A stretch of DNA of 64,000 nucleotides from Candidatus Heimdallarchaeota archaeon. Lineage in GTDB: Archaea > Asgardarchaeota > Heimdallarchaeia > Heimdallarchaeales > Heimdallarchaeaceae. Every line of letters begins with the position of its first letter. The first letter of the stretch is position 1. The translations under genes and the position numbers were made by a program. The stretch is taken from positions 1 through 64,000 of the forward strand of contig JABCTC010000003.1 of NCBI GenBank assembly GCA_018238545.1, in the 5' to 3' direction. Positions 1,319 through 56,592 of the stretch are shown piece by piece. The notes below the pieces were generated by a model. The model was given only the letters and a program-made list of their open reading frames with translations, had not been told where the DNA came from and made no database searches.

Positions 1319-1361
1319 TCCTTCTTCTTCTGATGTACTATCTCGTATAACTTTAGAGAAG

Positions 1362-3342: not shown

Positions 3343-3446
3343 GGACTAACACTATCATACTTTCATATTAATATTGTCTTTTTAGAAAGGAAATAAATCA
3401 ATTTTTTTGAGAATATACTTATTAATACAAAATAAAAGGTTTCATA

Positions 3447-3980: not shown

Positions 3981-3982
3981 AA

Positions 3983-4078: not shown

Positions 4079-4118
4079 AATAAGAAAATGTTTTAAGCCA
4101 ATATGATAAAATCAAATC

Positions 4119-36103: not shown

Positions 36104-39100
36104 ATGCAAGGTAAACTCCGTACAATTATAGGTATTTTAATTTTAACAATTACAGTAAGTTCATCAGTCGCAATGGGTGTATTGCTTCCTCTTCACTCTT
36201 CGAATTTAATTACCCAAATATATACAGATATGGATAATAATGCTCGGTTGACAGAGAGTGATTTCTTTCCAAATGACGGAAGCGGTAATTACTCTGAATG
36301 GATGTATACAGGTGTAGGAACAAACACTTCAAAATTTGTTGATCAAGCAGTTTTTGAATTCTTCAATATTACAGATAGAGAGGCTTACCTCGACTACAAT
36401 ACGAAAATAGCGTACTTCTTTGTGCAAGGTGAACTAGTTTTTGACATTATTATTAATAAAACAGTTTTAGAATACGACGTAGAATCTGACTATGTAGTTT
36501 ATGCTTATAGAAAACAATTTCTCTTCAATGCAGAAGACTCATCCCTAACTGGTGATGAAACTGTTTTGAATTTCAACTATCTTTGGCCATATTATATTGA
36601 ACATTTTGGAAATGGATCAGAATATGGTTTTCAGAGTTTTATAGCATCAAAACTAATTCAAGAAGAATTAATCGGTTTTAATACATCACTAGGTTATACC
36701 TTTGATGAATTAGCTTATGCAGTTATGAATAGAACATATGCTGAAGAAGAAGGTATAGTGGATTTAGGCATCTATTTGCCCCACAATTGGTTAAGTGTAA
36801 GACCTGCTTTTCCAGATCTTAACTTTGATATTGCAACAAGTTATCAGATATTGTATGATGCTATATATAATGGTCATGATTACTCATTACTAACAGGCGA
36901 AGCTGGTTCAACTAAATACTTCCTTGATTTAGTAAGAGGTCTTGATTTTGAAGGACAATATGATTTGATTGTTGATGTTGAACAACTTTTAACAGATATT
37001 TATGGAATTGATACTCCACAAGAACAAGAATACGCAAAATCCCTTGCAGCCTATATGAATTATTTACTAGGAAAGCCTTCATTGGATTGGCTTTATGAAA
37101 ATCAAATATCATATGTTTGTGAAAGAACTGCTATGGATTGGGTATTAGGTATTGAAGATCCTCTTATGGATGGAAAAAGATTCCCCTTAGTTAACAATCA
37201 ATCATTATCAAGTTCAAGTATTGATTGGGATTTAGATTTGTATTATGCAGAAAAACTTGGATCATATGATGTAAATGATGTTGGTAAAATCATAGCAATA
37301 GCTAATATTCCAGGGTATTATTATTCTCAATCTATGGAACTATTCGTGGAAGATAACCTAGCTTACGTGATAGAAGGTGGAACTGATATTAAAATAGTTA
37401 ATATGACAGATCCCTTATTCAAAGCAATCGGTCAATTCGGAGACTTCATTCTTGACACTGCTCTTCCCAATCCTTCATACGATCCTATAGGCGTTGATGG
37501 TTATATTTCAAACCTTGTTGTAGTTGATTCATATATTTATGCAGTAGAAGGTGACACTGGATTAGAAATACTCAATGCAACCGACCCAAGTGCTATTTAC
37601 GAACTTGACCAGTGGGATAATTTTGGGAATGCTGATATGCGAGATGTTGATAACGCCGTTTTTGGAACATCAACTCCTTATGATGCTCTTATAATAGCAA
37701 ATGGACAACATGGTCTAACTTATGCCAGATTGCAAACTGAAGATAGAACAGTAAGTACAGTTGTTAATTTTGCAGGGTTATCTGGAGAGGCTTATTCCGT
37801 AGATGAATACAATGATTACGCTTTCGTAGGTTTAGGAATTGATGGAATTGATGTAGTTAGTATAGATGGTCTCGACGGTACAATGGCGCTTGAATATCAT
37901 TATGATTCAATCAATTTTGCAACATTCAATAACATTCTAGATGTTAAAGCAGAAAATGGATTCCTATACGTTCTTGATGCAGTTGAGGGATTGTTAATAT
38001 TCGATATATTGTTTAATGGTACTCTTATTGAACAAGGTCAATTTGCATATGGACCTACGGAAACACCTTACATTGATGTTTATGTTGAAGGAACTAATGC
38101 CTATTTAGCACAAGGAGATTATGGTCTTGTTGTAGTAGATATCTCTAACAAACTCAGTCCTTCTGAAAATGCCAGATTTGACGGTGCTGAACACAAAGGT
38201 TTAGCATACAGCGTATATGTTGATGGAAGTGATGTTTATCTTTCAGATTATTCTCAAGGACTGGTTCATCTCAATTATGTCTCTAACACCTTTTCAATTG
38301 CTAATAAAGATCAGTTACACACTTTCGTTGAAGCTTGGCAAAGCGAGAACAATATTCAATTCAATAATTGGCTTCTAAGTGATCCTGAATTCGAAGCAAA
38401 TGAAACATATGATTCATTCGGATTATACACATTTGTTGAAAGAGGTTTCAGACAACAATGGACAGAGTATTTCCTTAGACCTTACATCTTCTCCTCATTA
38501 ACAGATACAGCTCTGTTTGTTGATAAAACAGTATTAGTTTATACCGCACAAGCTCAGATACCATATCTACAAAATGAGGAAAACAGCCTGTATTGGATGC
38601 AAGACGCTAACTTCCTCAATGAAAGTTTCCAACATGCAGGAAGATGGAGCATCCTTCATGGGGTAGAATATCAAGCAACAGATTTTGATATTACTCATTC
38701 CTTCCCTGGTACATTACGAGATGAATTCCACATGCAATTCATGTTAGTAGAACCTAAAACAGGGTCTATAATTGAACGCAAAGATAGAGTACAATATAAT
38801 ACACGAGCTATAGACTATAAAGAGGCTTATTCACTTCTCAATAAGACTACATTCGGATACGAGTGGGAAGTCCCTGGGGCTAATTACGTCAATTTACCTG
38901 TTGATCACATCTACAAGACATGGCATGTTACATATCCAGCTTTACCTGGAGATATGGCAACACTCTTCTGGCAAGAAGATGTCTACAAAGCTACAAATAA
39001 TTTCTATGAAGTGTTAAGAGAAGACTTCTTAGATAAAATCGACAATGCTGATGCTCTGAGAACATTAGGTGCTTTTGGTTCAATGTTCAGTGTTGCCGCT

Positions 39101-39163
39101 GGTTTTATTGTAGCTTCTGTTGTGCTCAATTTCATGAAGAAGAGAGCAGAAATTCCAAAATAA
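36104..39163 (+). CDS. CD36/DUF3068-like ectodomain protein with inserted LVIVD propeller
   Basis: A 1019-residue protein with a transmembrane segment near each end (about 7-28 and 993-1012), so a large external domain. The N-terminal ectodomain reads like CD36/LIMP-2 or the related DUF3068 group: FEFFNITDREAY (84-95), then Y..RK.F.F....S.L.GDETVL...N (~133-158). Near the C-terminus EPKTGSIIERKDRVQYN (883-899) matches the CD36 P.TG......R.Q.N block. Between them, ~400-735, are six or so LVIVD-type beta-propeller blades (e.g. NLAYVIEG..DIKIVNMTDP, GYISNLVVV, DYGLVVVDIS). CD36 proteins bind and channel lipids. The homology is recognised by eye only. It has its own promoter and stands alone. Confidence 0.62.
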   Translation: MQGKLRTIIGILILTITVSSSVAMGVLLPLHSSNLITQIYTDMDNNARLTESDFFPNDGSGNYSEWMYTGVGTNTSKFVDQAVFEFFNITDREAYLDYNTKIAYFFVQGELVFDIIINKTVLEYDVESDYVVYAYRKQFLFNAEDSSLTGDETVLNFNYLWPYYIEHFGNGSEYGFQSFIASKLIQEELIGFNTSLGYTFDELAYAVMNRTYAEEEGIVDLGIYLPHNWLSVRPAFPDLNFDIATSYQILYDAIYNGHDYSLLTGEAGSTKYFLDLVRGLDFEGQYDLIVDVEQLLTDIYGIDTPQEQEYAKSLAAYMNYLLGKPSLDWLYENQISYVCERTAMDWVLGIEDPLMDGKRFPLVNNQSLSSSSIDWDLDLYYAEKLGSYDVNDVGKIIAIANIPGYYYSQSMELFVEDNLAYVIEGGTDIKIVNMTDPLFKAIGQFGDFILDTALPNPSYDPIGVDGYISNLVVVDSYIYAVEGDTGLEILNATDPSAIYELDQWDNFGNADMRDVDNAVFGTSTPYDALIIANGQHGLTYARLQTEDRTVSTVVNFAGLSGEAYSVDEYNDYAFVGLGIDGIDVVSIDGLDGTMALEYHYDSINFATFNNILDVKAENGFLYVLDAVEGLLIFDILFNGTLIEQGQFAYGPTETPYIDVYVEGTNAYLAQGDYGLVVVDISNKLSPSENARFDGAEHKGLAYSVYVDGSDVYLSDYSQGLVHLNYVSNTFSIANKDQLHTFVEAWQSENNIQFNNWLLSDPEFEANETYDSFGLYTFVERGFRQQWTEYFLRPYIFSSLTDTALFVDKTVLVYTAQAQIPYLQNEENSLYWMQDANFLNESFQHAGRWSILHGVEYQATDFDITHSFPGTLRDEFHMQFMLVEPKTGSIIERKDRVQYNTRAIDYKEAYSLLNKTTFGYEWEVPGANYVNLPVDHIYKTWHVTYPALPGDMATLFWQEDVYKATNNFYEVLREDFLDKIDNADALRTLGAFGSMFSVAAGFIVASVVLNFMKKRAEIPK

Positions 39164-39354: not shown

Positions 39355-42300
39355 TTGTCTGATGATACAAGAGCAAAGAAAATGTCAGCAGCTGCATTCT
39401 TCAATGATAACAAAGCAATAGCTGGCTTTGGAAATTCAATGAGGGCAGTATTTACGAGTATCAGAGAACTTGTAGAAAATGGTTTGGATGCAGCAGAAAT
39501 AAGGGGAGTCAACCCTGTTATTTCAGTTGACTTACGTAAGCTTTCTAGCAGAGAAATTAACGATCTGCTAGATGTTACACAATATAAAAAGTTGGAAAAG
39601 CATCTTGATTTTCTGCAGTTAACTTGTAGAGATAACGGTGTTGGGGTTCCAAGTAATCAAATAGCAGATTTGTTCGGACGAGTATTAACCGGAACTAAAT
39701 ACGGTGTGATTCAGACTCGTGGTCGATTTGGTCTTGGAGCAAAAATGTGTTTACTTCACTCTATGTCTTCAGTTGATCTACCTGCTCGTATCAAAAGTCG
39801 TTATTTTATGGATGATATGACTCATGAACTACATTTAATGATAGATCTTGAAAGAAATCAACCTATCGTCATGGAACAAAGAGAATATTTATCTGGAGAT
39901 CCAAATGCGCTAGAAGAACCGGGTGTTGAGATTAGCATAACCTTTACAGGTGCTTGGAGATTAGCAAAGAATAGCGTTAAAGAATACTTCAGACAGTTAG
40001 CAATTATTACTCCTTATGCAAGTTTTGATATAAAAGTTCCTGGTGATAAGGAAGGAGAATATGAGGAATTACATTATGTGAATGTGGTAGATGATATGCC
40101 TTCCCCTCCCCAGCACGTTAAAATTCATCCTTGGGGTTGTGATATCACTCAATTCAAATCAGAATTATCTTCAACTAAAGCTAAAAAAATGAAGAAATTT
40201 CTTGCAGAACATTTTATGGGAGTAACAGAAGAAATTGCTGAAGATTTCTTCCAGTTATTGGAAATCGACCCAAACAAATCACCTTCGAATATAACTTCAA
40301 AAGAAATTCGAAGAATAGTTCACGAAGGTTTTGTTAAAGCTTATCAAGAAGCCAAGGATGTTAAGAGGAAACGAGATAGGATATTTCAGTTTGACCCACC
40401 TAGAGGAGATGCTCTTTCTCCATTAGGTGCAGGAAGATTAAGGAAAGGTCTCGAGAAAGAATTACAACCAAAATTTGTTGAAGCGGTTACAAGACCTCCT
40501 AAGGCTTATTCTGGTCATCCTTTCGCAATTGAAGCAACAATGGGTTATGGTGGGGGAGTAAATGAAGCAGCTCAAGCTAAAGGAACTACCGTCCACGACA
40601 ATAAGATAATTTACAGGTATGCTAATAGAATCCCTCTTATTTTTGGGGCTGGAAATGATGTTATCACTCAAGTCGTTTCCTCTATTCGGTGGAACGATTA
40701 TGGACTAACTAGACAGTCTGACCCTCTTGCCATCGCTGTTTCGTTAGTCAGTACAAAAATACCTTTCCCTGAGACAAGTAAAGAATATATTTCTAATGTT
40801 CCTGAAATTGAAGAAGAAATAAGATTAGCTCTGATGCAATTAGGAAGGAGACTTAAAACCTTTTTGAGCAGAGCAAAACGAAGAAAGAGAGAACATGCTC
40901 GATTATCAAGATTTGTTAAATCAGCACCAGTAATAATTGAAAATCTCACTCAAATTCTTGAAGATGAGAACCTTAAATTTACCGATTTCCGACTAGAAAC
41001 AGATCGGATTTCTGCAGCTCTCGCTCATGGTACTCCGAGGAAGGTTCGCCTTTATATGCCAATTGGAAAGCGGTTATTCGGAGCAAATATTTGGTGCCCA
41101 AATAATATTCAAACTACATTAAAGAATAACAATGTTGAGTCAGTTGCAGAATTTTTACTCAAAGATTCAAAAGAATTAGTTACAATCCTTCAATTAACAG
41201 AATCTCAAGTTTACGACATAAAATTAAGAACCATTTCTGAATTGGATAGAGACAACTTGAGTCCAAATTTTGACACAAAGACCTTAGTATCTCGTCTTGT
41301 TGAAAGAAGGTTCTCCTCCGAAGGTGAAAGAAAATTCATTTCCCTAAAAGATGCATTATTTAGGCGATGGATACAAAATGTTTACCACTATTTAGCAACG
41401 GATTTCGAAAAATTACGTAATGTCTCCGGAATGCTTGAGAAATTTTTTGAAACTAAAAAAGACGAATTACTTAATGATTATTTAGCTAAAGGAGCTAAAA
41501 CAAGTAAAAATACCATATTAACAATAGACAAAGCTATTGCTACTTACGCTAAAGCATCAGATTTAAAGAAAGAACAACTTTACCCTCCTTTTAAATATTT
41601 AAAATCTGAAACTGACAATGTTCTTGGAGAAGATTTATCGATAGAAGAATTTCTTTACCAGACTGTACAACCCACATCTATCAACTATCATCCAGAAATA
41701 ACTCGAACACTTATCGAGTATCTGAAAATTGTATTTACCCACATCAAAAACAAATTCCCTGCTTTCGCAACAACCAGTATAACAAAAATGCAACCTGATT
41801 GGACAGACGGTTATACAAAAAACGCTTTCCACAGAAGAAAGATAAAAACTGTTGGTGATTTTCTAAACCATTCTACTGATGATCTTATCGACATAAAAGA
41901 ACTGGAAAGAATAATGTATGAACAATACATTGAACTGATCACATTAAATACCAAATCTGTTCCTTTGAATGATTTCTCTTTTGTTGAGATTCAACAGCTA
42001 AAAGAAGAAGAAAACCGTATTAAGAGAGTTTTGGCTAAACACGGAATAAAAACCCTTGCTCAGTTCTTAAGTTATCCCTCTGAATCGATTTTACTTAAGA
42101 AGTTTGATACTTTAAGTGCTCTTCTGCTCAAGGAATCAAAATTCAAATTATTTACAAATTTACACGATACTAATAGAATTATTAATCAATCTTACATCAA
42201 AGTTATTCCTAAAAATGTTGAAACAGAATTAGTGAAAAATCAAATATTTACAACTTCTACCTTTTTAGCCAAATCTTCTGTAATTTTGAAGAAAATGGGC

Positions 42301-45300
42301 ATGAAGAAAAAAGATATTGAGAAAGCAAAGAAAGAACTTGGTACACCTTTACAGAATTGGGTTGATCATGATGAAATTCTCAAGAAATGTGGTATAGTAG
42401 TTTTAGAAGAATTATTCTTCAATGACGCCTCTGAATATAATCTCACAACTGAAGAAAGTAAGAAATATACTGAAAATATCATTTTCCTCCGTACGCCATT
42501 AGTTTTTGTGTTACCTGAATTAAGAAGTTCTTCTTATCTTCTTACTGAAATTGGCATCAATAATATTGGTCGTTTTTTGATATGGTCTAATACTGAACTT
42601 TCAGATATCCTTTATCTATCTGTCAATGAAATAAAAGCTCTAAAGAAGAAAATTGCCTTTCAAAAACAAATTCAATCAAAAGAAGAACTGAAGAAAGATT
42701 TAGTACTTTTTTCAAGGCACTATCCCAATTTAGTGAAATATTTTGGTAATGAAACACCATCGATTCAGGATTTGTATTATGCTTACCAATCAGAGAATTT
42801 CTCGCTTAATACAGGTTTTTGGAAGAAATTATACAAATTGAGTGAACTATCTCAACAAGAAGCTGTTGATTTAGTACATCTTTATCCAAAGAACTTCAAA
42901 GATATAGAGACGGTGAAAGATGCTCTTCTACGCTTGAAATCGAGGAATGTTGAAACTATACGTCAATTCATGGAATTACAACCAGAGATAATTGAATCAA
43001 AATTGAGTAACTCAAAGGAAAGAAAAGTTGCATTAGATCTTTATGATAAAATACTATTCAGAAGATTTGAAGGAGAACAGGAACTTCATAAACAAATACT
43101 TCTTCTTAGTGAGTATGATGAACTTCAAAGAAATTTTGGATCTCCTATCTCTAGAATCCCTGAACTTACTCTAGAGGAATTGGAAAAATTCCGAAGCCAC
43201 GATATACTAGCTGTTCATCAAATATTCGATTATACAGTTGATGAAATTGCTACTTTGCTTGGTCGTGACAAAGGCTCGGTTCAACACTTCATGGAAAGCT
43301 TTACACTCTTACGGAAAGGAACACCGTTTTTTGAGAAAGCAGATAGAAACAGATACAAATCACTTGTTTCCTTTGAATTTGAGGATTTAGAACGATTTTC
43401 TTCCATAGAGATTCAATCCCTTATTCAAGCTGGCTATGCTTCAGTTGACCAGATTTTTTACCTCACACACCCACTTACTTTTTCCTCTTCCATTCTAAAT
43501 TGGAATGTTGTAGACAAATTTAGAAAATTATTACGATCTCCACTTACATTGGTTACATGGGAAAAATCAGTTAAGTTAAAATCTTTTGATGAGGTTAAAA
43601 ATAAAGAAGTTGAGGTTGTGGATATTCAGATTTCTACATTAACTACTTCACAATTAACCGTTTTGCAGAATCAAGGCATTTCAAGAATCATCGATCTTCT
43701 TGTAAGTGAACCAGAAACGCTTTCAGAATCTCTTAACATCAGTTTGGATGAAGCTAAGATGCTTCAGAAAGATATCAGAATTATTGATACTGGAACTGAT
43801 TTAGCAGATTTAGACATCTTCAAATCAGAAATTGTTGATCAATTAGAAGAAAACAACATCTTAACTCTTGAGGATTTATATTTCTCAACTACGAAGAGTA
43901 AATGGCGAGTTAAGGAAGTTCCATGGGATATCATTATGTCATTCAAAAGTGTCCTCAACCTCCCCCTTGCACATTTGTCAGATATGTTGGATGAAGATAT
44001 TATAGTTGCATTAGAGGGCGCAAATGTTAAAACTCTATTAGGATTTATTCTTACAACTCCTGAAAGTTTAATGAATAAAACTGGTATACCTGATGAAAGA
44101 TTCGAAACAATAAAACGCGGATTGGATATCTCCGATATATTCAGTTATTTCTCACTTCCAAGTTATTTTCTTCCAAATTTAACCTTCCAGCAAACCGAAA
44201 TTCTACAAGAAAATGGCATTAAATCGGTTGCAGAATTTGTAAATAGCTCTCCACAGAAAATTAACAAACTAATCAAAGTAACTGCAAAGCAGTTTCGAGA
44301 AATCACTACGGCTTTAACCACTCAAAACCTCCAAGCTCTTTACGATGAGAAAGGTATCTTTGCTTTTGAAACAAAGCTCTTCGATAAAATGGAACAACGG
44401 CAATTGGGCAGAGATTCAATATTTGAATTTGATAGGTTTCAAACTATCCAAGAAATATACTATACGTTGAATAGAGATTTCTATTCAAATAATCAAAACC
44501 TGTGGGGAAAGGTCTCGGCAATCCAGAAAGTATTATTACTTCCTCTGCACATATTCACCGAAATTTCTGAATATGCTCTTGAGATTATGAGTCAAAACAG
44601 TATTGATTTTGTTTATCAGCTACTCTTTATTCTTGATGCAGATATTACTGATCCCTTATTATTCAGAACTGTATCAACTTATTCTTCAAAAATAATTGAG
44701 ATGAGAGCATTTCATTACTTTTCTAAGCTCCCTGCTTCTGTTTATAACTCAAGTTATTTCAAAAAAATATTGAAGGATACTGACAACAAATCTCTATCTG
44801 ATGTTATTACTGATGAGAAGATTATCAAAGATTTATCTGCTAAGGATAAACAATACCTATATGAAAATTATAACTTAACTCTCATTCGATCAATTCTAGA
44901 ATTACCTCTAAGGATTACTCCTTACTTTACAAGAATAAAGAAAGTTAGAAGAGAAGAATATAAAAATACAAAAATCGGAGATGTTTTTGATATTGATTTA
45001 GAGGAGCACTCTGCTCTGTCTTCTTTTTACTCTAGATTACTTGAAGAAAATTCTTTCAACAAATTAATCTCACAATTAACTATCCCTATATCTTCAATGG
45101 GATTACCTCGCGAACTTGCATTGAAGCTAAGCAAATCCTCTATAGGTACGTTATTAGCTTTCTATTCTACTCCTGAGAAACAAGTTTCTGAAATCTCTGG
45201 TTTCTCACAGAAGAATATTCGAGAAATAAAAGATGAATTAAAATATTCCAACATTGTTTCTATCCGAGTTTCACAAGCTCATAAAATTAAACCCTCTTCC

Positions 45301-48300
45301 TTTGCATCAGAAAAACAAATTTTTGACCTTATGGGGAGATCGATATCGGATATTGAGTCTCTCTTCTACTCCGCAGAACATTTAGGAATCTCAAAATGCC
45401 TTCCCATTGAAAATTATAAGAAAATCAAGGAAATTCTATCAGGATCTATAAGATTCATAGGATTTCTTTCATTTGATGAAATAAGGCGGTTGGAGTATCA
45501 TAATATTAATTCAATAATAGATTTTGCTCTACTCTCGAAAAAAGAACTTTTCACTATTACACAGAATCCAATTTACAAGGAATTTCATGTTCTAGATCTG
45601 ATTTCTTTTGATGAATTATCAGAAAAAAGGATTCAAGCTGCTATACCCCTCTCTCTGTGTCCCTCGATAGAAGAAGACTATTTAGATAAAATCAAAGAAA
45701 TAGGAATCAACTCTATTCAAGATTTTATCTCTAGAATGCCAGAAATTAGAGAATCTCATCCTCATTTAGTGAAATTAGATATCTTCCGCGAAGTGCAAAT
45801 GTATCTGTCCTCTGTTGCTTATATCGGACTTCCAAATGAAAGCGTTCAAAAACTGATTTACTCAGGTGTTGGCGATATTTTATCTTTCATTACTGAAGAT
45901 CCTTCAACTATCTCTCTGATTCTTGGAATAAGTGAGAAACAAGTTGAGAAATATAGCAAACTTGCTGTTCCAAGTAATTTGGTCACAGAAGTCGACAACA
46001 AAGGTGTTCTTCTCACTGAATTTTCAGCGTTATCTAAAGGAAGAAGAAATTCCTTACTTAAATCTGGTAAAGAAACAGTTCAAGATCTATTTAGTTCCCG
46101 TTATCAAGCATATTCTCAATCTAACATCTCTGATGTGTTAATGAGCGAATTTATTGAAAGTTGTAATGTGTCTTTATACAGAATTGAAGAAATTGAACCA
46201 GAAATTAAAGCTAAACTTTCAAAGAGTGAAATAACTAGGATTATTGACTTATTATGTAGTACTGATGCAGAACTAAAGAAAGCTCTTGATGGTAAACTCC
46301 CAAAAGAGTTTAAGCAAATTAGAAAAGGTCAGTTTACTTTAACAAAAGGCATTCCACTAATTTTGAATGAACCTTTGCAGGATATTATTAGAGAACTTAA
46401 TATCGAACCTTCCAACAAAAAAGTTGAGGACATGTTTGGTTTTGTACCCGAATTTCTACTTCAATTTACAGAATCTGAAAGGATTGAAAAAGACAAGAAT
46501 TTGGCTTTTCTTGAACAGATAGTTAGTTTCTTGAGTCTTAATATACTATCATTACCATTATTTAATACAACTACTAAACTAATTCTTTGGAACCGTGGAA
46601 TCCGACATGTTATAGAACTTTTATCTACTAATATGAACACAATTGATGGTATCCCATTTCAAGTAATATCAGAGGTTCGCTCTTTCCAGAAAGAATTTAG
46701 TTTAACTAGAAGCATGTCAGAGACATTGTCACCATACATTGATGATGTACTCATCTTGCCTGCAAAGAAGCAAGCTAAATTCCAGAATTATGGTCTCACT
46801 AATGCATTGTTATTTGTTGATTTTATACCTCATCCTATATTCAGTTTCACAGCAAGTGAGCAATCTATTCTCAGGATTGTTTCAAATAACATGTTCAAAC
46901 CTATAGCCTGGTTATCTTCAGATATGTCATTTAAGATAGAAGATATGAATTTACTTATTCAAAATAGAGCAATAAATATCCTTTCAGCTCTTCTTTTGTT
47001 ATCTGATCAAAATGATACTAAAGTTCTAGAAACTTTATCTAATAAATACTACAAATCGATTTCTACTTACCTAAATTCATCAATCTTACAATTTAGTGCT
47101 CCTGAATGGGCCTTGCAATTAACAGATACAAAGATAATAACTGATTCTAACAGTTTGAAGATACTAAAGAAAGATAATATCTCTTATCTTGATGAATTTT
47201 TAACACTAGAAAGCAAGTTCTTGAATAACCCTAATCTTGTAGCAGAGATTTTGCCAAAATTACTCTCCCTAAAGAGTCTCCCTATTTCCTCTATCAGTGA
47301 TCTATCACCCAGTAACATTCAAAAATTAAAACGTTCAAGAATAAATAATGTTTATGAGTTTCTTGTTTTTCCAGCTCCGTTGCTTTCAAATCTTCTGTCG
47401 ATTTCTGTTGAGAATGTTAACGCAATTAAATCTTCAATTGATCTTTCATCATTGGAAAAAACAGCTAAGCTTACAGGTTTAGATCTAGAGCTCTTCCCAG
47501 AACTTTCCCAAGATTCTAGAACAATTCTTCAAAGAAGAGGTTGCGTATCTCTGAATCAAGCATCAAAAATGGATCTAGACTTGATTCCACTTCTTTCAGA
47601 AGATAAAGCGATTCTACAAAATCTAATAGCTATGTTGTTTACTCCTACTACATTAATTGGAAAAATACTTAAATTAACAAAAAATGAAATTGATGAATTA
47701 TTGGTTCAGAACGTATGTACCTATGCAGACCTGTTGGAGCTTCCTCAAAAAACATGGCCAGCAAAAATAAGGAAGAGTCTTTCTGATAAGGATTCTGATC
47801 CAACATACCTTATCAAGAATCTACAGAACCTTGAGAAATTCGGAGTACCTATAGAAAAGTTAGATTTAGCGAAAAGTGTAACTAAATCTTTGGTAGAAGC
47901 AGGAATTGTGACAATTGATCATCTATACTATCTACCCATAGCCTATGTAAGTGCAAGAAGTAAAGTTAAACAGCATATTCTTGAAGAAATAAAGAAGAAA
48001 TTATCATATAATATTAATTTCCTTCAAGATATCTCACTTACAACTTTATCTGTTTGCTATTCAAAAGATTCATTCACGATAATTAGTTGCTTGATTTATT
48101 GGAATGGTTTATCGAAAGATGTAAGAACAGACTTAGAAGGTTCTTTAGACAGTATCAAATTAATTGAAGAAACAAGTTTTATAGAACCACTGACTCCAAC
48201 GGAAACAAAGTTAAAATCAATAGGTATTTTCTCCTTAAGATCATTCATTTTATCTCCTCAGATTAAGAAAGAAGCAGGCTTAACAACCAAACTTTTACCA

Positions 48301-51300
48301 TCTCTATTAGCAAATATTCGTTTCTTAAATCTAGATCCAAAGCAGAGTTATCGCTTGAAGAAAACAGGTTTTACAACTGTTGCTGACTTGCTTCTAAATA
48401 CATCAAAAACTATATCTGTTAAGTCTAAATTGGGCAAGAACGCAATTGATGAAGTTATCAATAACATAAAAATTGATAACCTAACCAGTTTGATTAAATC
48501 GATGGAACGAGAGCATTTACATGATGCATTTTATCTGAATTCTAACGATAAAGCATTCTTGAAATCAATAGGTGTTTATAGTTTAGCAGACTTAAACGAG
48601 TATACTGTTTTTGATTGGTTTGTTTCAAAACAAAAAATACAGAAAATCAAAAAGAAAATTAATTCCTTATTAGATACTAACATTTTGTACTATCCAGGAA
48701 TCACATCTAAGCAGTATGCAGAAGTTGTTGAACAATTCTTCATGAAGGATATATTTACAATCAAAGATCTGATGATATCAACAACAGTTGAGCAGTCAAG
48801 TGATTTAATTGAATTTTTAACCATTTTCTCTACTAACAAACCTAAAATCCAATCCCAGTATTTAACTTCTCTATCATTCTTAAAAGGGATTGAAGCCAAA
48901 GACTTGTTTAAGATTGACGTAAAAATGGAAAAATCTGCAACAATTAATGATCTTATTATAGCATTATACAAAAATTCAGCAGAATTGACCAAAAAGGGTG
49001 ATGATGTTCTTAAGCAAATCAGCTACCCCATTTCTATTTCATCGAAACTCAATCTCGATGAAGTAAATATTTTACTTAGTAAAAATATCCTCTCTTATGG
49101 AGATGTGCTTACCAAACCATCAGGTTATTGGGTAGCATTTACTCCAGTGAAACTAAAGAAGAAACTTCTTGAAATTCTTAGTACAATAACATCGAAAACT
49201 ATTAGCAATGATAGTAGTAAGGGCGTTCAATTAAGTAACATGAAAATATTTGATGCAAACCTCAAGAAACAGCTTACATCAAATTTTAAAACACTCGATG
49301 AAGTTGCTCATGCAATAAGAATAGGTGATTCTCGGATCTTAAAACCATTAGAGAGGAAAATCACTAAGGTTCTCTCTACTCCTATTTCTCTCCTTAAACT
49401 GCCAAAAATCAGCATCAAATCTTGGAAACGACTGTTATCTACAGCATCTACATTAGAAGAATTTTACTTATTAACAGATCAAGAACTTGTCAAAATATTT
49501 TCTTCTACCAAAGAAGAAATCGTAAAATTAAAAAATAATCTTGGTCCTGATAATATCGTCCTACCTCCAAGGATAAAGGAAAATAAAATCTTTACTAGTT
49601 CTGATGTTAAAGAATTGAGTGATAATAGTATTTCAAATTACATACAAATATTTGATAAATCTGCAGAAAAAGCAGATCTCAGCACTTCCTTAAAAGATAA
49701 AATTGCTTTCTACAAAGAGTTTGATGTTAAGCAACTAGATGAAAACTTAGAAGAAACTATACTCTTGAAAGATTTTGTAATTCTTGAATCTTATGCAGAT
49801 TCTCTAGAATTAAGTAGAAAACAAAAAGAATCTGTAAAGAACCTTTCTTCCTTGCTTCTATCTCGTGGTACATATTTGTCAAAGATTTTTGATATAGATT
49901 CTAATAAAGACAAAAGTGGTTTGCTCAATACAACTATAGAGTATTTCCTCTTAATTGAGAAATATCAACCTAAAATATACTCGAAAATTATTGAATCTTT
50001 ACCGGGAAATATCTCTTCACAATTCAACTCTTTACTGTCTTATCTCAATCGATCACCAATTCTCCTTTCAGGACCAAATCTAAAAAATATCAATAAAATA
50101 GTTAAACTTCCTTATGAAAATGTAAAGGACTTGCTATTATTGTCCAAGGAGAAACTTGTTCAAGAAATAGATGACACTGCAGTTCAAAGAAATATTAGAG
50201 GATTGACATTATCTATTTTGAAGAGTCTTAATTCCAAACTGACCTCTATTCCAAAAGAATTTTTGACAGCTTACGAGTTAAATCAGTTAAAGAAAGAGAA
50301 TATTTATTCCTTTGAGGAAGCTTTGGTTTTCAATAGAAAATCAACTAGTAAGAAGTCTAAGACTTGGTTACTCTCTGAGAAAGTAAGAAAAATTTCCACT
50401 ATCAACACACTCTCACTTTCTTCGTATCTCCCCTCATCTAAAATACAAGAAAGACTACTAAAACTTAAGATATCCAATGTTTATGAGCTGGTTTATTATT
50501 GCCAGAATACAGAAAAAGAAGAAGATCTGAGTCTTTGTCAAACTGTAATTCAATCTGTAAGTTCCATTAACATTGAGGAAATTGAAATAAAAGAGAGAAA
50601 AAGATTTGCTAAATTCTTTAATGACCCTGATATTCTTTCTTATTTGCGAAGCCAAGATATCAGAACTTTTGGACCTTTAGTACACTATCTAGAGCAATTA
50701 GAGGATGAAACTATTACACCTGAAATTGAGAAAATCTTATCCGTTATGCGTTTTCCAATTTCTGTTCTATCAGAAAATAAGAAACTTGTACAAAAATTAG
50801 AAAGTGAAGGTTATAACCAAGTAATTGATCTTCTTCTTCCTGCAAAAATTCAAAACAGTTTGAAAAGCAATATTACAGAGAATCAGCGGAAAGTTCTTGC
50901 GTCTTTAATCAACATGTTTTATCAAGAAATATACCAAACAATCCTAAAAAATCATTATCCAGTTTCAAAACTTACTTTGATCGATGATATTTTACAAAAA
51001 GAATTAATAAAAGCTGGATATGCAACAGTAGCTCATCTCAAATCACCTGATATAATTATTGCTGATACAAGCAAATTAAATCTGCAACAAATTTCACGTA
51101 TTGTGAGACTGTTTGATGCTTCTACCTACTACTTGTCTGAAATGCTCAAAGACTATCCACAAAGTGCTTTTGTTTTGTATAGCAATGGAATTAACACACT
51201 ATGGGACATTTTCCTTACAGGAAGTAAGGAAATATCCAAGATTACAGGTATATCTGTTCGTCAAGTAAATTCCTACTTATCAACTATCAATCCTCAAGCT

Positions 51301-52059
51301 ATGAAACTTTCGCAGAAAGATCAAATTATTCTGAAAGAAACACTTACCTACTTAACAACCGATGATGTGGGACGATTGGAACAAGATAACATCACATCTA
51401 TCCAACAATTATTGTTCCTAACAAAGGAAAACAAAACCAGTTCTTCACTCCAACGAAGTAATGTAAAGAAATTCATTCAATTACTTAGTATGCCTTTAAG
51501 TACAATAGACATACAAGAAACAGTTATTAAACAGCTGGAAGTACTCGGCATTAAATTAGTAAAAGATTTTGTTGTTTATCCAGCAGAACCTATGGCTGGC
51601 AAAGTAGACATAAGTTATGTAATGATAAAAAGAATTAAGGGAAGACTTCCTTTGGTTACAAAAAAGAAAGTAAAACAAACTGCCAAAACTTCGACCTTAA
51701 AGAAACCAACAGCTAAAAAATCTGCTACAACTAAGGGAGCTACTCCCGCTAAAAAGCGTTCTTCAACAAAGTCTAAGACCACAAAGAAAACTATAGCTCC
51801 GAAGAAATCAGCAAAAACTCAACAAAAAGCTAAACCAAAGGCTAAACCAAAGGCTAAACCAAAGGCTAAACCAAAGGCTAAACCAAAGGCTAAACCAAAG
51901 GCTAAACCAAAGGCTAAACCAAAGGCTAAACCAAAACCGAAATCCACTAAACAAATGACTTTGATGGATATTAAACCTACTTCCACAAAGAAACCATCTT
52001 CAACTTCAAAAACGAGAAAAAGCTCAAAATCCACTACTAAAAAAGGTGAAAAATCATGA
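39355..52059 (+). CDS. top6B: Giant topoisomerase VI subunit B with HhH-like repeat array
   Basis: A 4234-residue protein. Residues 1-~540 are a complete topoisomerase VI B module: GHKL ATPase (E38, N42, D45 of ELVENGLDAAE; DNGVG 93-97; GRFGLGAK 123-130), H2TH and transducer with the KIPFPETSKE lysine loop. This part alone is the normal full length. Residues ~560-4100 are a repeat array: units of about 50-67 residues with pattern L..L...GI.[ST]V..FL......L.......... .I..LK..L, like paired helix-hairpin-helix DNA-binding domains. Examples have the GI/NI/NV/GY residue at 898, 964, 1014, 1068, 1442, 1502, 1558, 1622, 3889, 3946, 4013 and 4066. Residues ~4103-4234 are a Lys/Ala/Pro tail. TTG start, preceded by AGAGGT. 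One uninterrupted frame. Confidence 0.9.
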   Translation: MSDDTRAKKMSAAAFFNDNKAIAGFGNSMRAVFTSIRELVENGLDAAEIRGVNPVISVDLRKLSSREINDLLDVTQYKKLEKHLDFLQLTCRDNGVGVPSNQIADLFGRVLTGTKYGVIQTRGRFGLGAKMCLLHSMSSVDLPARIKSRYFMDDMTHELHLMIDLERNQPIVMEQREYLSGDPNALEEPGVEISITFTGAWRLAKNSVKEYFRQLAIITPYASFDIKVPGDKEGEYEELHYVNVVDDMPSPPQHVKIHPWGCDITQFKSELSSTKAKKMKKFLAEHFMGVTEEIAEDFFQLLEIDPNKSPSNITSKEIRRIVHEGFVKAYQEAKDVKRKRDRIFQFDPPRGDALSPLGAGRLRKGLEKELQPKFVEAVTRPPKAYSGHPFAIEATMGYGGGVNEAAQAKGTTVHDNKIIYRYANRIPLIFGAGNDVITQVVSSIRWNDYGLTRQSDPLAIAVSLVSTKIPFPETSKEYISNVPEIEEEIRLALMQLGRRLKTFLSRAKRRKREHARLSRFVKSAPVIIENLTQILEDENLKFTDFRLETDRISAALAHGTPRKVRLYMPIGKRLFGANIWCPNNIQTTLKNNNVESVAEFLLKDSKELVTILQLTESQVYDIKLRTISELDRDNLSPNFDTKTLVSRLVERRFSSEGERKFISLKDALFRRWIQNVYHYLATDFEKLRNVSGMLEKFFETKKDELLNDYLAKGAKTSKNTILTIDKAIATYAKASDLKKEQLYPPFKYLKSETDNVLGEDLSIEEFLYQTVQPTSINYHPEITRTLIEYLKIVFTHIKNKFPAFATTSITKMQPDWTDGYTKNAFHRRKIKTVGDFLNHSTDDLIDIKELERIMYEQYIELITLNTKSVPLNDFSFVEIQQLKEEENRIKRVLAKHGIKTLAQFLSYPSESILLKKFDTLSALLLKESKFKLFTNLHDTNRIINQSYIKVIPKNVETELVKNQIFTTSTFLAKSSVILKKMGMKKKDIEKAKKELGTPLQNWVDHDEILKKCGIVVLEELFFNDASEYNLTTEESKKYTENIIFLRTPLVFVLPELRSSSYLLTEIGINNIGRFLIWSNTELSDILYLSVNEIKALKKKIAFQKQIQSKEELKKDLVLFSRHYPNLVKYFGNETPSIQDLYYAYQSENFSLNTGFWKKLYKLSELSQQEAVDLVHLYPKNFKDIETVKDALLRLKSRNVETIRQFMELQPEIIESKLSNSKERKVALDLYDKILFRRFEGEQELHKQILLLSEYDELQRNFGSPISRIPELTLEELEKFRSHDILAVHQIFDYTVDEIATLLGRDKGSVQHFMESFTLLRKGTPFFEKADRNRYKSLVSFEFEDLERFSSIEIQSLIQAGYASVDQIFYLTHPLTFSSSILNWNVVDKFRKLLRSPLTLVTWEKSVKLKSFDEVKNKEVEVVDIQISTLTTSQLTVLQNQGISRIIDLLVSEPETLSESLNISLDEAKMLQKDIRIIDTGTDLADLDIFKSEIVDQLEENNILTLEDLYFSTTKSKWRVKEVPWDIIMSFKSVLNLPLAHLSDMLDEDIIVALEGANVKTLLGFILTTPESLMNKTGIPDERFETIKRGLDISDIFSYFSLPSYFLPNLTFQQTEILQENGIKSVAEFVNSSPQKINKLIKVTAKQFREITTALTTQNLQALYDEKGIFAFETKLFDKMEQRQLGRDSIFEFDRFQTIQEIYYTLNRDFYSNNQNLWGKVSAIQKVLLLPLHIFTEISEYALEIMSQNSIDFVYQLLFILDADITDPLLFRTVSTYSSKIIEMRAFHYFSKLPASVYNSSYFKKILKDTDNKSLSDVITDEKIIKDLSAKDKQYLYENYNLTLIRSILELPLRITPYFTRIKKVRREEYKNTKIGDVFDIDLEEHSALSSFYSRLLEENSFNKLISQLTIPISSMGLPRELALKLSKSSIGTLLAFYSTPEKQVSEISGFSQKNIREIKDELKYSNIVSIRVSQAHKIKPSSFASEKQIFDLMGRSISDIESLFYSAEHLGISKCLPIENYKKIKEILSGSIRFIGFLSFDEIRRLEYHNINSIIDFALLSKKELFTITQNPIYKEFHVLDLISFDELSEKRIQAAIPLSLCPSIEEDYLDKIKEIGINSIQDFISRMPEIRESHPHLVKLDIFREVQMYLSSVAYIGLPNESVQKLIYSGVGDILSFITEDPSTISLILGISEKQVEKYSKLAVPSNLVTEVDNKGVLLTEFSALSKGRRNSLLKSGKETVQDLFSSRYQAYSQSNISDVLMSEFIESCNVSLYRIEEIEPEIKAKLSKSEITRIIDLLCSTDAELKKALDGKLPKEFKQIRKGQFTLTKGIPLILNEPLQDIIRELNIEPSNKKVEDMFGFVPEFLLQFTESERIEKDKNLAFLEQIVSFLSLNILSLPLFNTTTKLILWNRGIRHVIELLSTNMNTIDGIPFQVISEVRSFQKEFSLTRSMSETLSPYIDDVLILPAKKQAKFQNYGLTNALLFVDFIPHPIFSFTASEQSILRIVSNNMFKPIAWLSSDMSFKIEDMNLLIQNRAINILSALLLLSDQNDTKVLETLSNKYYKSISTYLNSSILQFSAPEWALQLTDTKIITDSNSLKILKKDNISYLDEFLTLESKFLNNPNLVAEILPKLLSLKSLPISSISDLSPSNIQKLKRSRINNVYEFLVFPAPLLSNLLSISVENVNAIKSSIDLSSLEKTAKLTGLDLELFPELSQDSRTILQRRGCVSLNQASKMDLDLIPLLSEDKAILQNLIAMLFTPTTLIGKILKLTKNEIDELLVQNVCTYADLLELPQKTWPAKIRKSLSDKDSDPTYLIKNLQNLEKFGVPIEKLDLAKSVTKSLVEAGIVTIDHLYYLPIAYVSARSKVKQHILEEIKKKLSYNINFLQDISLTTLSVCYSKDSFTIISCLIYWNGLSKDVRTDLEGSLDSIKLIEETSFIEPLTPTETKLKSIGIFSLRSFILSPQIKKEAGLTTKLLPSLLANIRFLNLDPKQSYRLKKTGFTTVADLLLNTSKTISVKSKLGKNAIDEVINNIKIDNLTSLIKSMEREHLHDAFYLNSNDKAFLKSIGVYSLADLNEYTVFDWFVSKQKIQKIKKKINSLLDTNILYYPGITSKQYAEVVEQFFMKDIFTIKDLMISTTVEQSSDLIEFLTIFSTNKPKIQSQYLTSLSFLKGIEAKDLFKIDVKMEKSATINDLIIALYKNSAELTKKGDDVLKQISYPISISSKLNLDEVNILLSKNILSYGDVLTKPSGYWVAFTPVKLKKKLLEILSTITSKTISNDSSKGVQLSNMKIFDANLKKQLTSNFKTLDEVAHAIRIGDSRILKPLERKITKVLSTPISLLKLPKISIKSWKRLLSTASTLEEFYLLTDQELVKIFSSTKEEIVKLKNNLGPDNIVLPPRIKENKIFTSSDVKELSDNSISNYIQIFDKSAEKADLSTSLKDKIAFYKEFDVKQLDENLEETILLKDFVILESYADSLELSRKQKESVKNLSSLLLSRGTYLSKIFDIDSNKDKSGLLNTTIEYFLLIEKYQPKIYSKIIESLPGNISSQFNSLLSYLNRSPILLSGPNLKNINKIVKLPYENVKDLLLLSKEKLVQEIDDTAVQRNIRGLTLSILKSLNSKLTSIPKEFLTAYELNQLKKENIYSFEEALVFNRKSTSKKSKTWLLSEKVRKISTINTLSLSSYLPSSKIQERLLKLKISNVYELVYYCQNTEKEEDLSLCQTVIQSVSSINIEEIEIKERKRFAKFFNDPDILSYLRSQDIRTFGPLVHYLEQLEDETITPEIEKILSVMRFPISVLSENKKLVQKLESEGYNQVIDLLLPAKIQNSLKSNITENQRKVLASLINMFYQEIYQTILKNHYPVSKLTLIDDILQKELIKAGYATVAHLKSPDIIIADTSKLNLQQISRIVRLFDASTYYLSEMLKDYPQSAFVLYSNGINTLWDIFLTGSKEISKITGISVRQVNSYLSTINPQAMKLSQKDQIILKETLTYLTTDDVGRLEQDNITSIQQLLFLTKENKTSSSLQRSNVKKFIQLLSMPLSTIDIQETVIKQLEVLGIKLVKDFVVYPAEPMAGKVDISYVMIKRIKGRLPLVTKKKVKQTAKTSTLKKPTAKKSATTKGATPAKKRSSTKSKTTKKTIAPKKSAKTQQKAKPKAKPKAKPKAKPKAKPKAKPKAKPKAKPKAKPKPKSTKQMTLMDIKPTSTKKPSSTSKTRKSSKSTTKKGEKS
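51829..51936 (+). repeat. 12-bp tandem repeat encoding AKPK
   Basis: Nine back-to-back copies of GCTAAACCAAAG (the last with one change) encode residues 4159-4194 of the giant B subunit as (AKPK)n. Near-perfect DNA identity implies recent expansion by slippage or strong conversion; copy number should vary among strains. Confidence 0.95.
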
Positions 52060-53465
52060 GTTCAGATTGCAAATTCATTATTAGTAATTCAACAGTTTTA
52101 CCTGCTATTGAGAGAACTGCTTCTTTTGACAAGGATATTCTAGTTCGAGAGATATACAGTTGGGCCAGAGAAACATTTGACCTCAAACGAGGGTCATATG
52201 TACTATTTTTAAGAAGCTTCAAGAAATGGCACAAACTTGAGCCTACAAGAAAATTATCTAGATACAATCTACAAAAAGATACCATGAGTATTAGTGTAAA
52301 AAACACAGTTTCAATCGACAAACTAAAAATCGTTAGAGAAGAATTGAAACATCTAACTGAATACTTGATGCCTTTCGGTGTTACTCACGTAGCAACTAAA
52401 AATTCTCAAGAAACAAACAATCTTCTTGTAGAATATTCTTTAGATTTCCTAAATCAAGCAATGTTATCACCTAATGATGCATCTTTTCAGATTCCATCTA
52501 GAGCTGGTACAAATGTAGGTTTTGATGAGGATCAAGAATTAGTTCTTATTGGTCGTCAAATGATTGATAGACAATTTAGAAATTTAGCTTCAGTTAGTTC
52601 TGTCGAACAAATGACCATTGTTATGAAACTTATTCATGATATTCTATCCAGAGATATTCACAGTACTAAAAGAGATATATTTTACATGAATGTAAATGCA
52701 TTTGATAAACAGTCTGTCTCTGATTCTCTCATAGAAGATGTTGGCGCAATGTTACAGGTTACTCGTTCATCTTTGAATATTAGTGCTTCTTCTAAAGGTA
52801 TTGTTGTTGGGAGGATTAGTTTCAAAGAAAAAGGAGATCTCATAAATTGCCGTGCAATAGGGGCTGGCAAAGCTATTTCCCCTAATATTGATGATATAGA
52901 AAACATGGAAACTGATGCAGAGATGTGTTTAGTTATTGAGAAGGATGCTGTCTTCAATAGGCTAGCTGAGGATCAATTCTATGATTATGTCCCAAGTATC
53001 CTTGTAACAGCAAAAGGTCAACCAGATATAGCTACAAGACAATTTTTGAAGAAGATAAACGATGATCTCAATCTACCTATATTTGCTGTAATGGATGCTG
53101 ATCCTTATGGGTTCGAAATTATGAGAGTATATAGTGTAGGGAGCAAAGCATTGAGTTTTGAATCAAGTCATTTAGCTGTTCCCAGCATTAAATGGTTAGG
53201 TTTACTACCTAGTGATCTCGCTCCTGAAAGTGGATTTGATATTCCGAGAAGTGCTTTAATTAAAATGACTTCCAAAGATCTTCATCGATCTAAACTGATG
53301 CTAGATGAGGAATTTGTTAAAAGAAAGCCAAAATGGAAAGAACAACTAGAAATACAAATAGCAACTGGTTTAAAAGCTGAAATACAGGCTCTTAACGCAA
53401 GAGATCCACAATATATTACCAATTTTTATCTTCCACAAAAAATCGAGGCTGGAGATTTTATCTAA
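52056..53465 (+). CDS. top6A: Topoisomerase VI subunit A (Spo11-like)
   Basis: The DNA-cleaving subunit. It overlaps the B-subunit stop by 4 nt (ATGA), so the two are made together and form the A2B2 enzyme. The active-site tyrosine is Y210 in TKRDIFYMN (winged-helix CAP domain), and the Toprim metal ligands are E295 (VIEKDAVF) and D347/D349 (MDADPYG). The length is 469 residues, against roughly 370-390 for typical archaeal A subunits, and the tyrosine is about 100 residues later than usual. The extra length is an N-terminal extension (1-~100) with charged helices and no motif I know. All catalytic residues are intact, so the enzyme should be active. Confidence 0.95.
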   Translation: MSSDCKFIISNSTVLPAIERTASFDKDILVREIYSWARETFDLKRGSYVLFLRSFKKWHKLEPTRKLSRYNLQKDTMSISVKNTVSIDKLKIVREELKHLTEYLMPFGVTHVATKNSQETNNLLVEYSLDFLNQAMLSPNDASFQIPSRAGTNVGFDEDQELVLIGRQMIDRQFRNLASVSSVEQMTIVMKLIHDILSRDIHSTKRDIFYMNVNAFDKQSVSDSLIEDVGAMLQVTRSSLNISASSKGIVVGRISFKEKGDLINCRAIGAGKAISPNIDDIENMETDAEMCLVIEKDAVFNRLAEDQFYDYVPSILVTAKGQPDIATRQFLKKINDDLNLPIFAVMDADPYGFEIMRVYSVGSKALSFESSHLAVPSIKWLGLLPSDLAPESGFDIPRSALIKMTSKDLHRSKLMLDEEFVKRKPKWKEQLEIQIATGLKAEIQALNARDPQYITNFYLPQKIEAGDFI

Positions 53466-54204: not shown

Positions 54205-56001
54205 TTGAAGCCTCAACGTTTACTAATTGATTCTTTAATAATTGTGCTAAGCATATCATTGCTTACTGCCCTTTCTACTACATTTAGGTGGTTTTTACCC
54301 CTCTATGAAAGTTACATTATAATCTTATATATTTTCGTTGGGATAGGTTTTATCATCTATGGGTGGTTATTAAGACGATGGTTTATTAAGAAGAATCTTG
54401 ATGAGAAAGATGGTTCATTAATACATTTACTGAAGATAATTCTACCAGTATTTAGTTTAATATTGATTTTTACCTTAGTAATTGGTTTATCAAGTCTATC
54501 AGAGATTATTCTCCTTTCAATGATATCTAGTTATTTGCTAAGTATATTTCAAATCTTCATAATATCGATTCTAGTTGGGATTTTCGCGTTTACTTTTATC
54601 GAGAATAATTTAGGAATTCTTCTTTTCAAAGAACCGGTTGCAGAACAAGAAACCGAACTGGGTTTTGGTTTAATGAGAAAACAGCTAAAAAATCTCATGG
54701 ACAAACAATGGAAATATGGTATGATTATTCTTTGGCTTTCTATTATGATTGCAAACATGCTGGTTTTTTTTGTATATCCATCTATACCTTCAAGTGATGT
54801 GGCATTTGGACTACAAAGTCTACATTTTAGTTTTCCAAATATTGCGTTTACATTTAATCCAGAAACAGGCTTTTATCAAGAATTTTTTTCTAGTGTTGCT
54901 CTCCCCTCATCAGCATTGCTAAACTGGAAGTTAATTCAATCTCTCATCAGTCTTACTTTTCTAGGCTTGCTTGTAATGCTAATATATCTACCTCATTCAA
55001 AGCTCCTAATGAACAAAAAGAAGGTTGATGAAAATACAAACAATATAGAGAAAATTCAAGAAAGTGATGAGAAAATAGTTGCTGTTGTAACTTCTTTAAC
55101 CGCTCCTGAAATTATTGAGCACTTTGATGATATAGACCCTGAAATTCTTGCTTATAAAATTCTGTCTCCATTGTCTACAAAAGAATACTTGCCTTCAAAT
55201 ATAATAAATCCTAAACCAAGGAGAAAGTTCTCTAAACTAATAAACAGAATGAAGAATAGTGATGTTATCCCAGTTATGAATTTAGCGAGCTTAAATCTTG
55301 TTGTTGCGGTTTATATAGTTAGTTTATTTCAAAGATTGGGAATAATAACAATTATTGTAAATGATCTGTATCAAGATTCATATGCTCAATTAACACATCT
55401 TTACTGGGCTGGTTTGGCCGAAGAAATATCTTATCGTTTTCTTATTTTTGGTGTCCCATTGTTTATCATCTATGGAGTAGTTTTTCTATTTATTTTCATT
55501 TTAAAGAAGACATTAATCAAAGAGAAGAAAGATGAAGATCTTTCAAGATTTGCATTATGGGTTAAGTCTAGAACACCTATAAACCCCTTACTTTATTTGA
55601 GTGGAAGATGGAAAAAACTGAGGATTCTTGACATTATGTTACTATTATTATCGTCATTTGGTTTTGGTTATGCTCACTACCAGTTTAGCCCAGATTACTG
55701 GGGTACATGGAAAATATTTCAAGCTGGTGTAGCTGGACTTATTTTTGGCTATGCTTTCTGCAAATACGGATTACACGCTGCAATAATTTTACATACAATT
55801 AATGATTTTGTCATAGGAATGATTGTAACTCCTAATCTTGGACTTTTGTTAGATGGTGGTATTCTATTTATGGTTATTATTTTTGCTGGAACGTTAGTTT
55901 TACTAAGTTTAGTGGCAAAGGCACTAACAGTATCTTTTAAATTCATAAATACAACATTAAAAAGAACTCAACCAATTACTGATACCTCTAAACAAAAGTG
56001 A
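54205..56001 (+). CDS. CPBP-family intramembrane metalloprotease (Rce1/CAAX protease-like)
   Basis: A 598-residue polytopic membrane protein. The C-terminal half carries the CPBP (Abi) protease motifs: E406-E407-x3-R411 (LAEEISYRF), the histidine in GFGYAHYQF and HTINDFVIG near residue 530. The N-terminal half adds about five to six helices and a soluble loop (~270-350) not found in the minimal domain. Eukaryotic Rce1 in this family cleaves prenylated CAAX proteins. The gene overlaps the start of a small GTPase and is followed by a HEAT protein. TTG start. The GTPase lacks a CAAX box, so it is not an obvious substrate. Confidence 0.88.
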   Translation: MKPQRLLIDSLIIVLSISLLTALSTTFRWFLPLYESYIIILYIFVGIGFIIYGWLLRRWFIKKNLDEKDGSLIHLLKIILPVFSLILIFTLVIGLSSLSEIILLSMISSYLLSIFQIFIISILVGIFAFTFIENNLGILLFKEPVAEQETELGFGLMRKQLKNLMDKQWKYGMIILWLSIMIANMLVFFVYPSIPSSDVAFGLQSLHFSFPNIAFTFNPETGFYQEFFSSVALPSSALLNWKLIQSLISLTFLGLLVMLIYLPHSKLLMNKKKVDENTNNIEKIQESDEKIVAVVTSLTAPEIIEHFDDIDPEILAYKILSPLSTKEYLPSNIINPKPRRKFSKLINRMKNSDVIPVMNLASLNLVVAVYIVSLFQRLGIITIIVNDLYQDSYAQLTHLYWAGLAEEISYRFLIFGVPLFIIYGVVFLFIFILKKTLIKEKKDEDLSRFALWVKSRTPINPLLYLSGRWKKLRILDIMLLLLSSFGFGYAHYQFSPDYWGTWKIFQAGVAGLIFGYAFCKYGLHAAIILHTINDFVIGMIVTPNLGLLLDGGILFMVIIFAGTLVLLSLVAKALTVSFKFINTTLKRTQPITDTSKQK

Positions 56002-56006
56002 AGAAC

Positions 56007-56591: not shown

Positions 56592-56592
56592 A

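Follow-up and report, generated by a model that had tools for sequence, protein, structure and literature searches.

What does a topoisomerase VI B subunit (Top6B) do with an arm several times longer than its catalytic core? The question is raised by a gene within 64,000 nucleotides of DNA from a Candidatus Heimdallarchaeota archaeon (contig JABCTC010000003.1, positions 1 to 64,000), which we call the window and to which all coordinates refer. The frame at 39355-52059 (+) starts with TTG, has GAGGT 7 nt upstream and is open and uninterrupted over 4234 aa, so that the single frame of the original prediction is confirmed. The locus is organized as follows.

39355..40989, + strand: Top6B catalytic core (residues 1-545) with GHKL ATPase, H2TH region and transducer
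40990..51669, + strand: arm (residues 546-4105), about 3560 residues, with an estimated 55 degenerate 62-aa units, predicted to be HhH/RAD51-N-domain-like
51670..52056, + strand: Lys/Pro/Ala/Ser-rich tail (residues 4106-4234), Lys and Arg making up 39 of the last 100 residues
52056..53465, + strand: Top6A, the cognate cleavage subunit, 469 aa; its start overlaps the Top6B stop by 4 nt

The core matches the NCBIfam model TIGR01052 (top6b) with 392 bits over residues 7-537 (cut-off 381), and the Pfam domain Topo-VIb_trans is found at residues 349-515. The Sulfolobus shibatae Top6B (2zbk_B) aligns over residues 8-541 (E = 1.4e-85) with ATPase boxes, H2TH, transducer and switch lysine in place. 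A complete N-terminal Top6B of about 540 residues, as originally claimed, is thus present. We take RELVENGLDA, DNGVGV and GRFGLGAK to be the N-box, G1 and G2 motifs and the lysine in STKIPF to be the switch lysine. By its GHKL motifs and its transducer with switch lysine the protein is, as predicted from the sequence, a topoisomerase VI B subunit. Top6A is recognized by Pfam PF21180 (E = 1.8e-57) and PF04406 (E = 2.1e-21) and by 2zbk_A (E = 3.7e-54), and its alignment to solved Top6A covers the tyrosine region, presumably RDIFY, and the Toprim acidic residues; VIEKD and DADPYG are presumably the metal sites. A single Top6B match and a single Top6A Toprim match were found in the genome, which is 91.8% complete. 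Compared with the topoisomerases VI of S. shibatae (2zbk) and M. mazei (2q2e), core and Top6A align nearly end to end, the motifs are kept and the genes are likewise adjacent. The solved archaeal Top6B chains, however, have only 530 and 621 aa, whereas in the window Top6B continues into the 3,560-aa arm and Top6A, at 469 aa, has an additional N-terminal part. In 16 regions, wherever both Top6B and Top6A are present (12 pairs), they are adjacent and co-directional; in five, Top6B or the contig ends first. An intein within Top6B was considered and rejected, as a Pfam intein match is absent in P0001. Nor does the window protein belong to topoisomerase V, as its N-terminal domain is that of Top6B and not a type IC topoisomerase domain.

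In the rest of the protein Pfam finds RAD51D_N in four stretches (E = 4.6e-23) and HHH_5 (E = 7.5e-11); RNA_pol_A_CTD matches four stretches with 23.0 bits, just under its cut-off of 23.8. To build a unit profile, seven seeds were extended iteratively through 54 proteins and the instances re-aligned. It yields the 62-residue consensus LSLPISFLPELSPEEIKKLKKNGITTIIDFLLTPNEELAKILGLSEEEIEEIKKSLDLEEIG (369 non-redundant of 632 instances) and supersedes an earlier model of 38 columns, which had given 21-22 units in the window protein. Against the arm alignment of 14 orthologous sequences the profile finds 41 placements (scores 17.2-73.5), whereas the reversed columns and three column shuffles gave one placement each with a best score of 16.1. 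Thus the repeat is not due to chance. A search with the sequence only detects, at E < 1, 36 units in the protein of the window and none in its shuffled version. The placements are mostly spaced by 50-70, often alternating between about 54 and about 68, and otherwise by about two or three times that. From this spacing we estimate that about 55 unit slots fit into the arm, which is close to the 55-65 units first proposed. Three parts of the arm stand out.

44149..44334, + strand: best-scoring unit (residues 1599-1660), hhalign score 73.5, E = 6.4e-13
41332..41850, + strand: proximal conserved module (residues 660-832), helical, carrying RRWIQN and DWTDGYTKNAFHRR
43330..43635, + strand: two predicted beta hairpins (residues 1326-1347 and 1400-1427), by DSSP of the AlphaFold2 model

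Within the proximal module the unit placements are weak (scores 23.2 and 26.7). It contains the invariant columns R132, W133, I134 and D279 of alignment A1 (16 sequences), and a RWI-type motif is found in 16 of the 19 armed proteins scanned.

AlphaFold2 models of residues 540-1690 and 2950-4105 (about 1150 aa each, built on 16 and 13 sequences) have pLDDT values of 84.5 and 81.6 and show HhH units. Each of the 12 hairpin residues named in the original prediction (898 to 4066) lies exactly two residues ahead of a turn of the models (900 to 4068). Single units superpose on solved HhH domains, closest on the N-domains of RAD51 paralogues; further matches are topoisomerase V, the DNA-bound alpha-CTD, Dpo4 and RadA, and one listed match shows the N-lobe of RAD51 on the tail of histone H4. 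These matches concern single units only, and their Z scores are in the range flagged by the tool as a possibly common arrangement. A Foldseek search of the PDB with the whole first model (residues 540-1690) gave nothing at E ≤ 0.001, which is uninformative for an array. The arm is thus predicted to be a chain of HhH units resembling RAD51 N-domains. In the RAD51 family (RAD51C 8gj9, chains of BCDX2 and CX3, RadA) the N-domain is a single domain on a RecA-type ATPase, whereas here a long array is attached to a topoisomerase. The C-terminal domain of RNA polymerase alpha has a topology in common with the unit but is also a single domain; it has DNA-contact residues, and a comparable conserved basic hairpin is absent here.

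What then could be the purpose of the arm? We tentatively favor the reading that it is a tether or scaffold of fixed length which likely docks topoisomerase VI on DNA and in certain lineages also on the sliding clamp. We suggest a tether because the length stays nearly constant while the surface drifts, as in a spacer. The arm would serve mainly as a spacer or as a protein-docking surface rather than as a DNA grip. The C-terminal anchor would likely bind DNA, in some lineages also PCNA, and the enzyme would be kept at a distance from this anchor. The substrates of the enzyme could be positive supercoils and catenanes at or behind the forks, with a separate DNA gyrase alongside in genomes that have one.

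An anchor is suggested because the tail is basic and has clamp-like or SAP ends. The last 130 residues or so are Lys-rich and hypervariable among the aligned C-termini. Such a tail might bind DNA or RNA, or might have no specific ligand. SAP domains above cut-off are found near the end of the arm in P0054 (3974-4011), and the frame of L052 ends at a contig edge in similar sequence. Within the tail of the window protein lies a putative clamp motif.

51949..51972, + strand: PIP-like KQMTLMDI (residues 4199-4206), with QxTL in 14 of 14 aligned C-termini and aromatic residues absent

The Q-x-T-L is found in all 14 aligned C-termini of close relatives, window included, and is followed by D in at least 13; P0015, marked as partial and ending without the motif in the sequence available, was left out of this alignment. 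In the part of PMC4929162 consulted, the PIP box is defined as QXXhXXaa. The window C-terminus does not carry this full form, as QMTLMDI is without aromatics. Of 47 intact C-termini, 21 have Qx[TS][LIM] within their final 60 aa, compared with a mean of 1.9 and a maximum of 7 in 500 shuffles. In four of the 47, which belong to distant homologues, one aromatic residue completes QxxhxxAromatic (QKSLNAF or QKSLDEY), a form similar to the FEN1 ending. FEN1 of the window's genome ends in the full form KQKSLDAFFG, and PCNA is encoded there at C102:30475-30828; the C-terminus of RNase HII, DSKLTDYFG, is neutral for the PIP reading. A degenerate DNA pattern for the motif gave matches no commoner than its reversed control. 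Qx[TS][LIM] is missing from all 13 complete proteins with lengths of 3,468-3,685 aa and from the frames of a unit search of 48 frames (see below), and the proteins of 2.3-2.5 kaa have one incidental match (P0052). With the motif missing from the 3,468-3,685-aa proteins and, but for this match, from those of 2.3-2.5 kaa, clamp docking cannot be what the arm serves in general. Binding of PCNA by the C-terminal motif is the weakest step of the mechanism because many armed proteins are without the motif. There is a precedent for contact of topoisomerase VI with clamp-bound complexes, as a NucS pull-down from P. abyssi, in the part of PMC4929162 consulted, held PCNA together with both topoisomerase VI subunits. 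The window tail also has a run of AKPK micro-repeats (51670-51960), which is not seen in the other 13 aligned C-termini.

Instead of a clamp tether the arm could be a platform whose units gather partners such as recombinases, chromatin proteins or gyrase at topoisomerase VI. We consider this possible but rather unlikely. The predicted units have the RAD51-family N-domains as their nearest folds, including the entry with the histone H4 tail, and the PIP-like motif is missing from many armed proteins. The platform is also suggested by a probable ubiquitin-like domain on the partner subunit.

52056..52310, + strand: predicted ubiquitin-like N-terminal domain of Top6A (residues 1-85); the family profile ranks ubiquitin first

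This profile was made from nine Top6A N-termini encoded beside armed Top6B. On its own, the window N-terminus matches only FERM_f0 (E = 0.0026) and MHC_II_alpha (E = 0.058), both under cut-off. Ubiquitin is matched at E ≤ 0.1 by four of the nine; only the N-terminus from G176 exceeds Pfam cut-offs (Rad60-SLD 29.8, ubiquitin 27.4), with that of L029 just under. When the two best members are removed, ubiquitin still comes first, although the matches to single ubiquitins are then weak (E of 0.02 or higher). No ubiquitin-like match was obtained for the Top6A that G042 encodes next to its short-armed copy. For the window Top6A, a ubiquitin-like N-terminus is a prediction. An argument against a platform is that positions outside the predicted core of the units are poorly conserved, although a docking surface should be conserved.

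The original prediction likened the arm to the DNA-gripping arm of topoisomerase V; in this reading, HhH units would wrap DNA and thereby give processivity. The topoisomerase V of Methanopyrus kandleri is indeed similar in that a topoisomerase domain is followed by tandem HhH units, as stated in the sections of PMC9489208 consulted. Its topoisomerase domain, however, is unrelated, and according to the same source its 12 (HhH)2 domains form a positive track, of which only repeats 3-6 and 9 contact the backbone, whereas we find about 55 units in arms that are mostly neutral to acidic. In the window arm the canonical GhG-type hairpin pattern is absent (shuffle mean 0.17) and a plain GhG occurs once. 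At the hairpin positions 42-48 the mean ortholog conservation is 0.60 and the Lys/Arg fraction 0.14, and at positions 9-15 these values are 0.63 and 0.07, compared with 0.64 and 0.13 for the arm average and a conservation of 0.76 for buried positions (38 of 41 units in each case). A basic and conserved hairpin surface was not found in these 38 of 41 units. Since the hairpin pattern is absent and Lys/Arg are neither enriched nor conserved, the usual signature of DNA binding is missing despite the predicted HhH fold. The net charge is negative for 44 of 51 arms, down to -132, and slightly positive for seven, including the window with +8 (partial proteins included, three proteins left out, last 140 residues trimmed). 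A grip along the arm is therefore unlikely in our view. It would be in line with the predicted fold, with topoisomerase V, DNA-bound alpha-CTD, Dpo4 and RadA as structural matches and with the few slightly positive arms, and since only some repeats of topoisomerase V contact DNA (PMC9489208, as far as consulted), a minority of the units may bind DNA. Thus, the repeat and the predicted HhH fold of the original prediction are supported (AlphaFold2, RAD51D_N/HHH_5), while its gripping function is not.

It is improbable that the arm is a functionless expansion, produced by tandem duplications and simply tolerated by the cell. Such an origin would agree with the roughly fourfold variation of protein length between lineages and with the fast divergence of the sequence. 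However, dN/dS values against the near relatives L021 and L022 are 0.08-0.16 along the whole arm and 0.03 in the core (farther pairs are saturated at synonymous sites), so the arm is, judged from these sequences, under purifying selection. Over about 3360 arm residues only two gap events are found at 88% identity and one at 86%, compared with 13 and seven for L024 and L028 at 48-49% identity (an end artefact included). The arm is collinear with those of the three family members compared (49, 37 and 34% identity). The original prediction had called for a look at the length of Top6B homologues in Asgard genomes, and 13 family proteins, window included, have 4161-4341 aa.

The arm is also kept across a clade, which again speaks against mere tolerance. 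Among 227 genomes of the phylum searched, at least 215 have a Top6B transducer match among the matches listed. Family f1 has 14 open frames of 4140-4305 aa (one, of G021, running off its contig) and seven shorter ones. The other frames reach 4244 aa in f2 (to the contig edge), 3496 aa in f3, 3573 aa in f4 and 2324 aa in f5; f6 has frames of about 1120 aa, beside a copy of about 505 aa in most f6 genomes, f7 frames of 1323 and 1359 aa, both at contig ends, and f26 frames of 2286-2297 aa, beside a 564-aa copy in G176. In a unit search of 48 frames, many of the armed ones partial, units were detected in 14 genes but, at E < 0.01, in none of 31 further Asgard Top6B genes (three duplicate rows dropped, the G072b fragment left out, no scored row for G085). 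In a tree of 39 Top6B cores, without short core matches and duplicates, the 14 armed ones form one side of a branch with support 100/99. The arm thus marks one clade of Asgard Top6B, in line with a single origin. G042, with the shortest arm, is the first to branch off and the types of 3.5-4.3 kaa are nested within, which suggests, without proving it, that the arm lengthened stepwise among Asgard archaea. In protein databases at least 52 Top6B-matching proteins have about 2,330-7,400 aa (among the best 1719 candidates scored); those with organism names are Asgard, and in database records the name 'DNA topoisomerase VI subunit B' is already in use for them. The largest armed Top6B found has 4,341 aa. 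Both G042 (L047/L048) and G176 (L046) encode two Top6A/Top6B pairs, one armed and one plain. A 1348-aa Top6B frame in G080 (L049/L068) has no HhH units and is extended by sequence of another kind, and in L078-L082 (G158, G117, G131, G085, G096) divergent Top6B frames of 1013-1210 aa match the transducer only in part and have long portions upstream of it.

An assembly join or fusion of separate genes, against which the original prediction had warned, is hardly credible: a single-contig genome (G022, 3.33 Mb) has a 4304-aa homologue, 14 frames of 4140 aa or more occur in one family, and five DNA relatives are stop-free over their available length (L021, L022, L024, L028 with 3915 aa and L026 with 3309 aa), with one contig as the exception (L029/L053, 4969-15809), where Top6B is split after the core into ORFs of 625 and 2996 aa overlapping by 28 nt, which may be a sequencing error, a frameshift or a true separation.

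If the arm is a tether of fixed length, as we favor, one may go further and propose a 'ruler' topoisomerase VI. Up to about 55 modules resembling RAD51 N-domains would set the distance from the replication clamp at which crossings are resolved, the arm would have grown stepwise in Asgard (7, then 25, then 36 sequence-detectable units) and the ubiquitin-like domain would be a handle on the Spo11-like subunit for recruitment or turnover. This proposal is speculative and quite unlikely. The largest protein is about seven times as long as a solved Top6B chain, with the array kept across one clade of Asgard Top6B. Type II topoisomerases would gain a new architecture, in which a strand-passage machine is joined to RAD51-type modules, to an anchor that probably holds DNA or the clamp and, on the Spo11-related subunit, to what is probably a ubiquitin-like domain. 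The division of labor between gyrase and topoisomerase VI and the early history of Spo11/Top6 in archaea related to eukaryotes become directly testable.

In the literature searched, a giant or HhH-armed Top6B is not described. For group II Euryarchaeota, the part of PMC9348778 consulted reports an Ig-like C-terminal domain of about 100 aa on Top6B, and for Asgard Top6B it describes lineage-specific C-terminal extensions as a 'globular domain' tied to gyrase-bearing lineages. That part mentions neither giant length nor HhH, and we find armed Top6B also in two genomes without GyrA match. Extended Data Fig. 7b of PMC8813620, to judge from the part consulted, lists Asgard proteins of more than 3000 aa with their CDD domains and may include armed Top6B. 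Gyrase as the cause of the arm was rejected, as armed Top6B occurs without GyrA match in two of seven genomes (G042, G176); these being drafts, the evidence is weak.

Some further observations concern gyrase and the neighboring genes. In the window's genome (G000), GyrA (contig C59, L090:1283-5140) is encoded by a frame of 1285 aa that carries an intein (Intein_splicing 151-577, LAGLIDADG_3 375-459), and the GyrA frame of G022 is likewise split by an insert. In L045 (G053), GyrA, assigned by position, lies directly upstream of a 2311-aa Top6B and co-directional with it, and Top6A follows Top6B; the 657-aa gene next upstream of GyrA is possibly GyrB. Downstream of Top6A (54205-58947) the window encodes a Ras-like small GTPase (55998-56591), flanked by an unknown protein of 598 aa on one side and a HEAT-repeat protein on the other. 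Upstream of Top6B lies a 1019-aa LVIVD-repeat protein (36104-39163), a relative of which is also found upstream in L043, L057 and L058.
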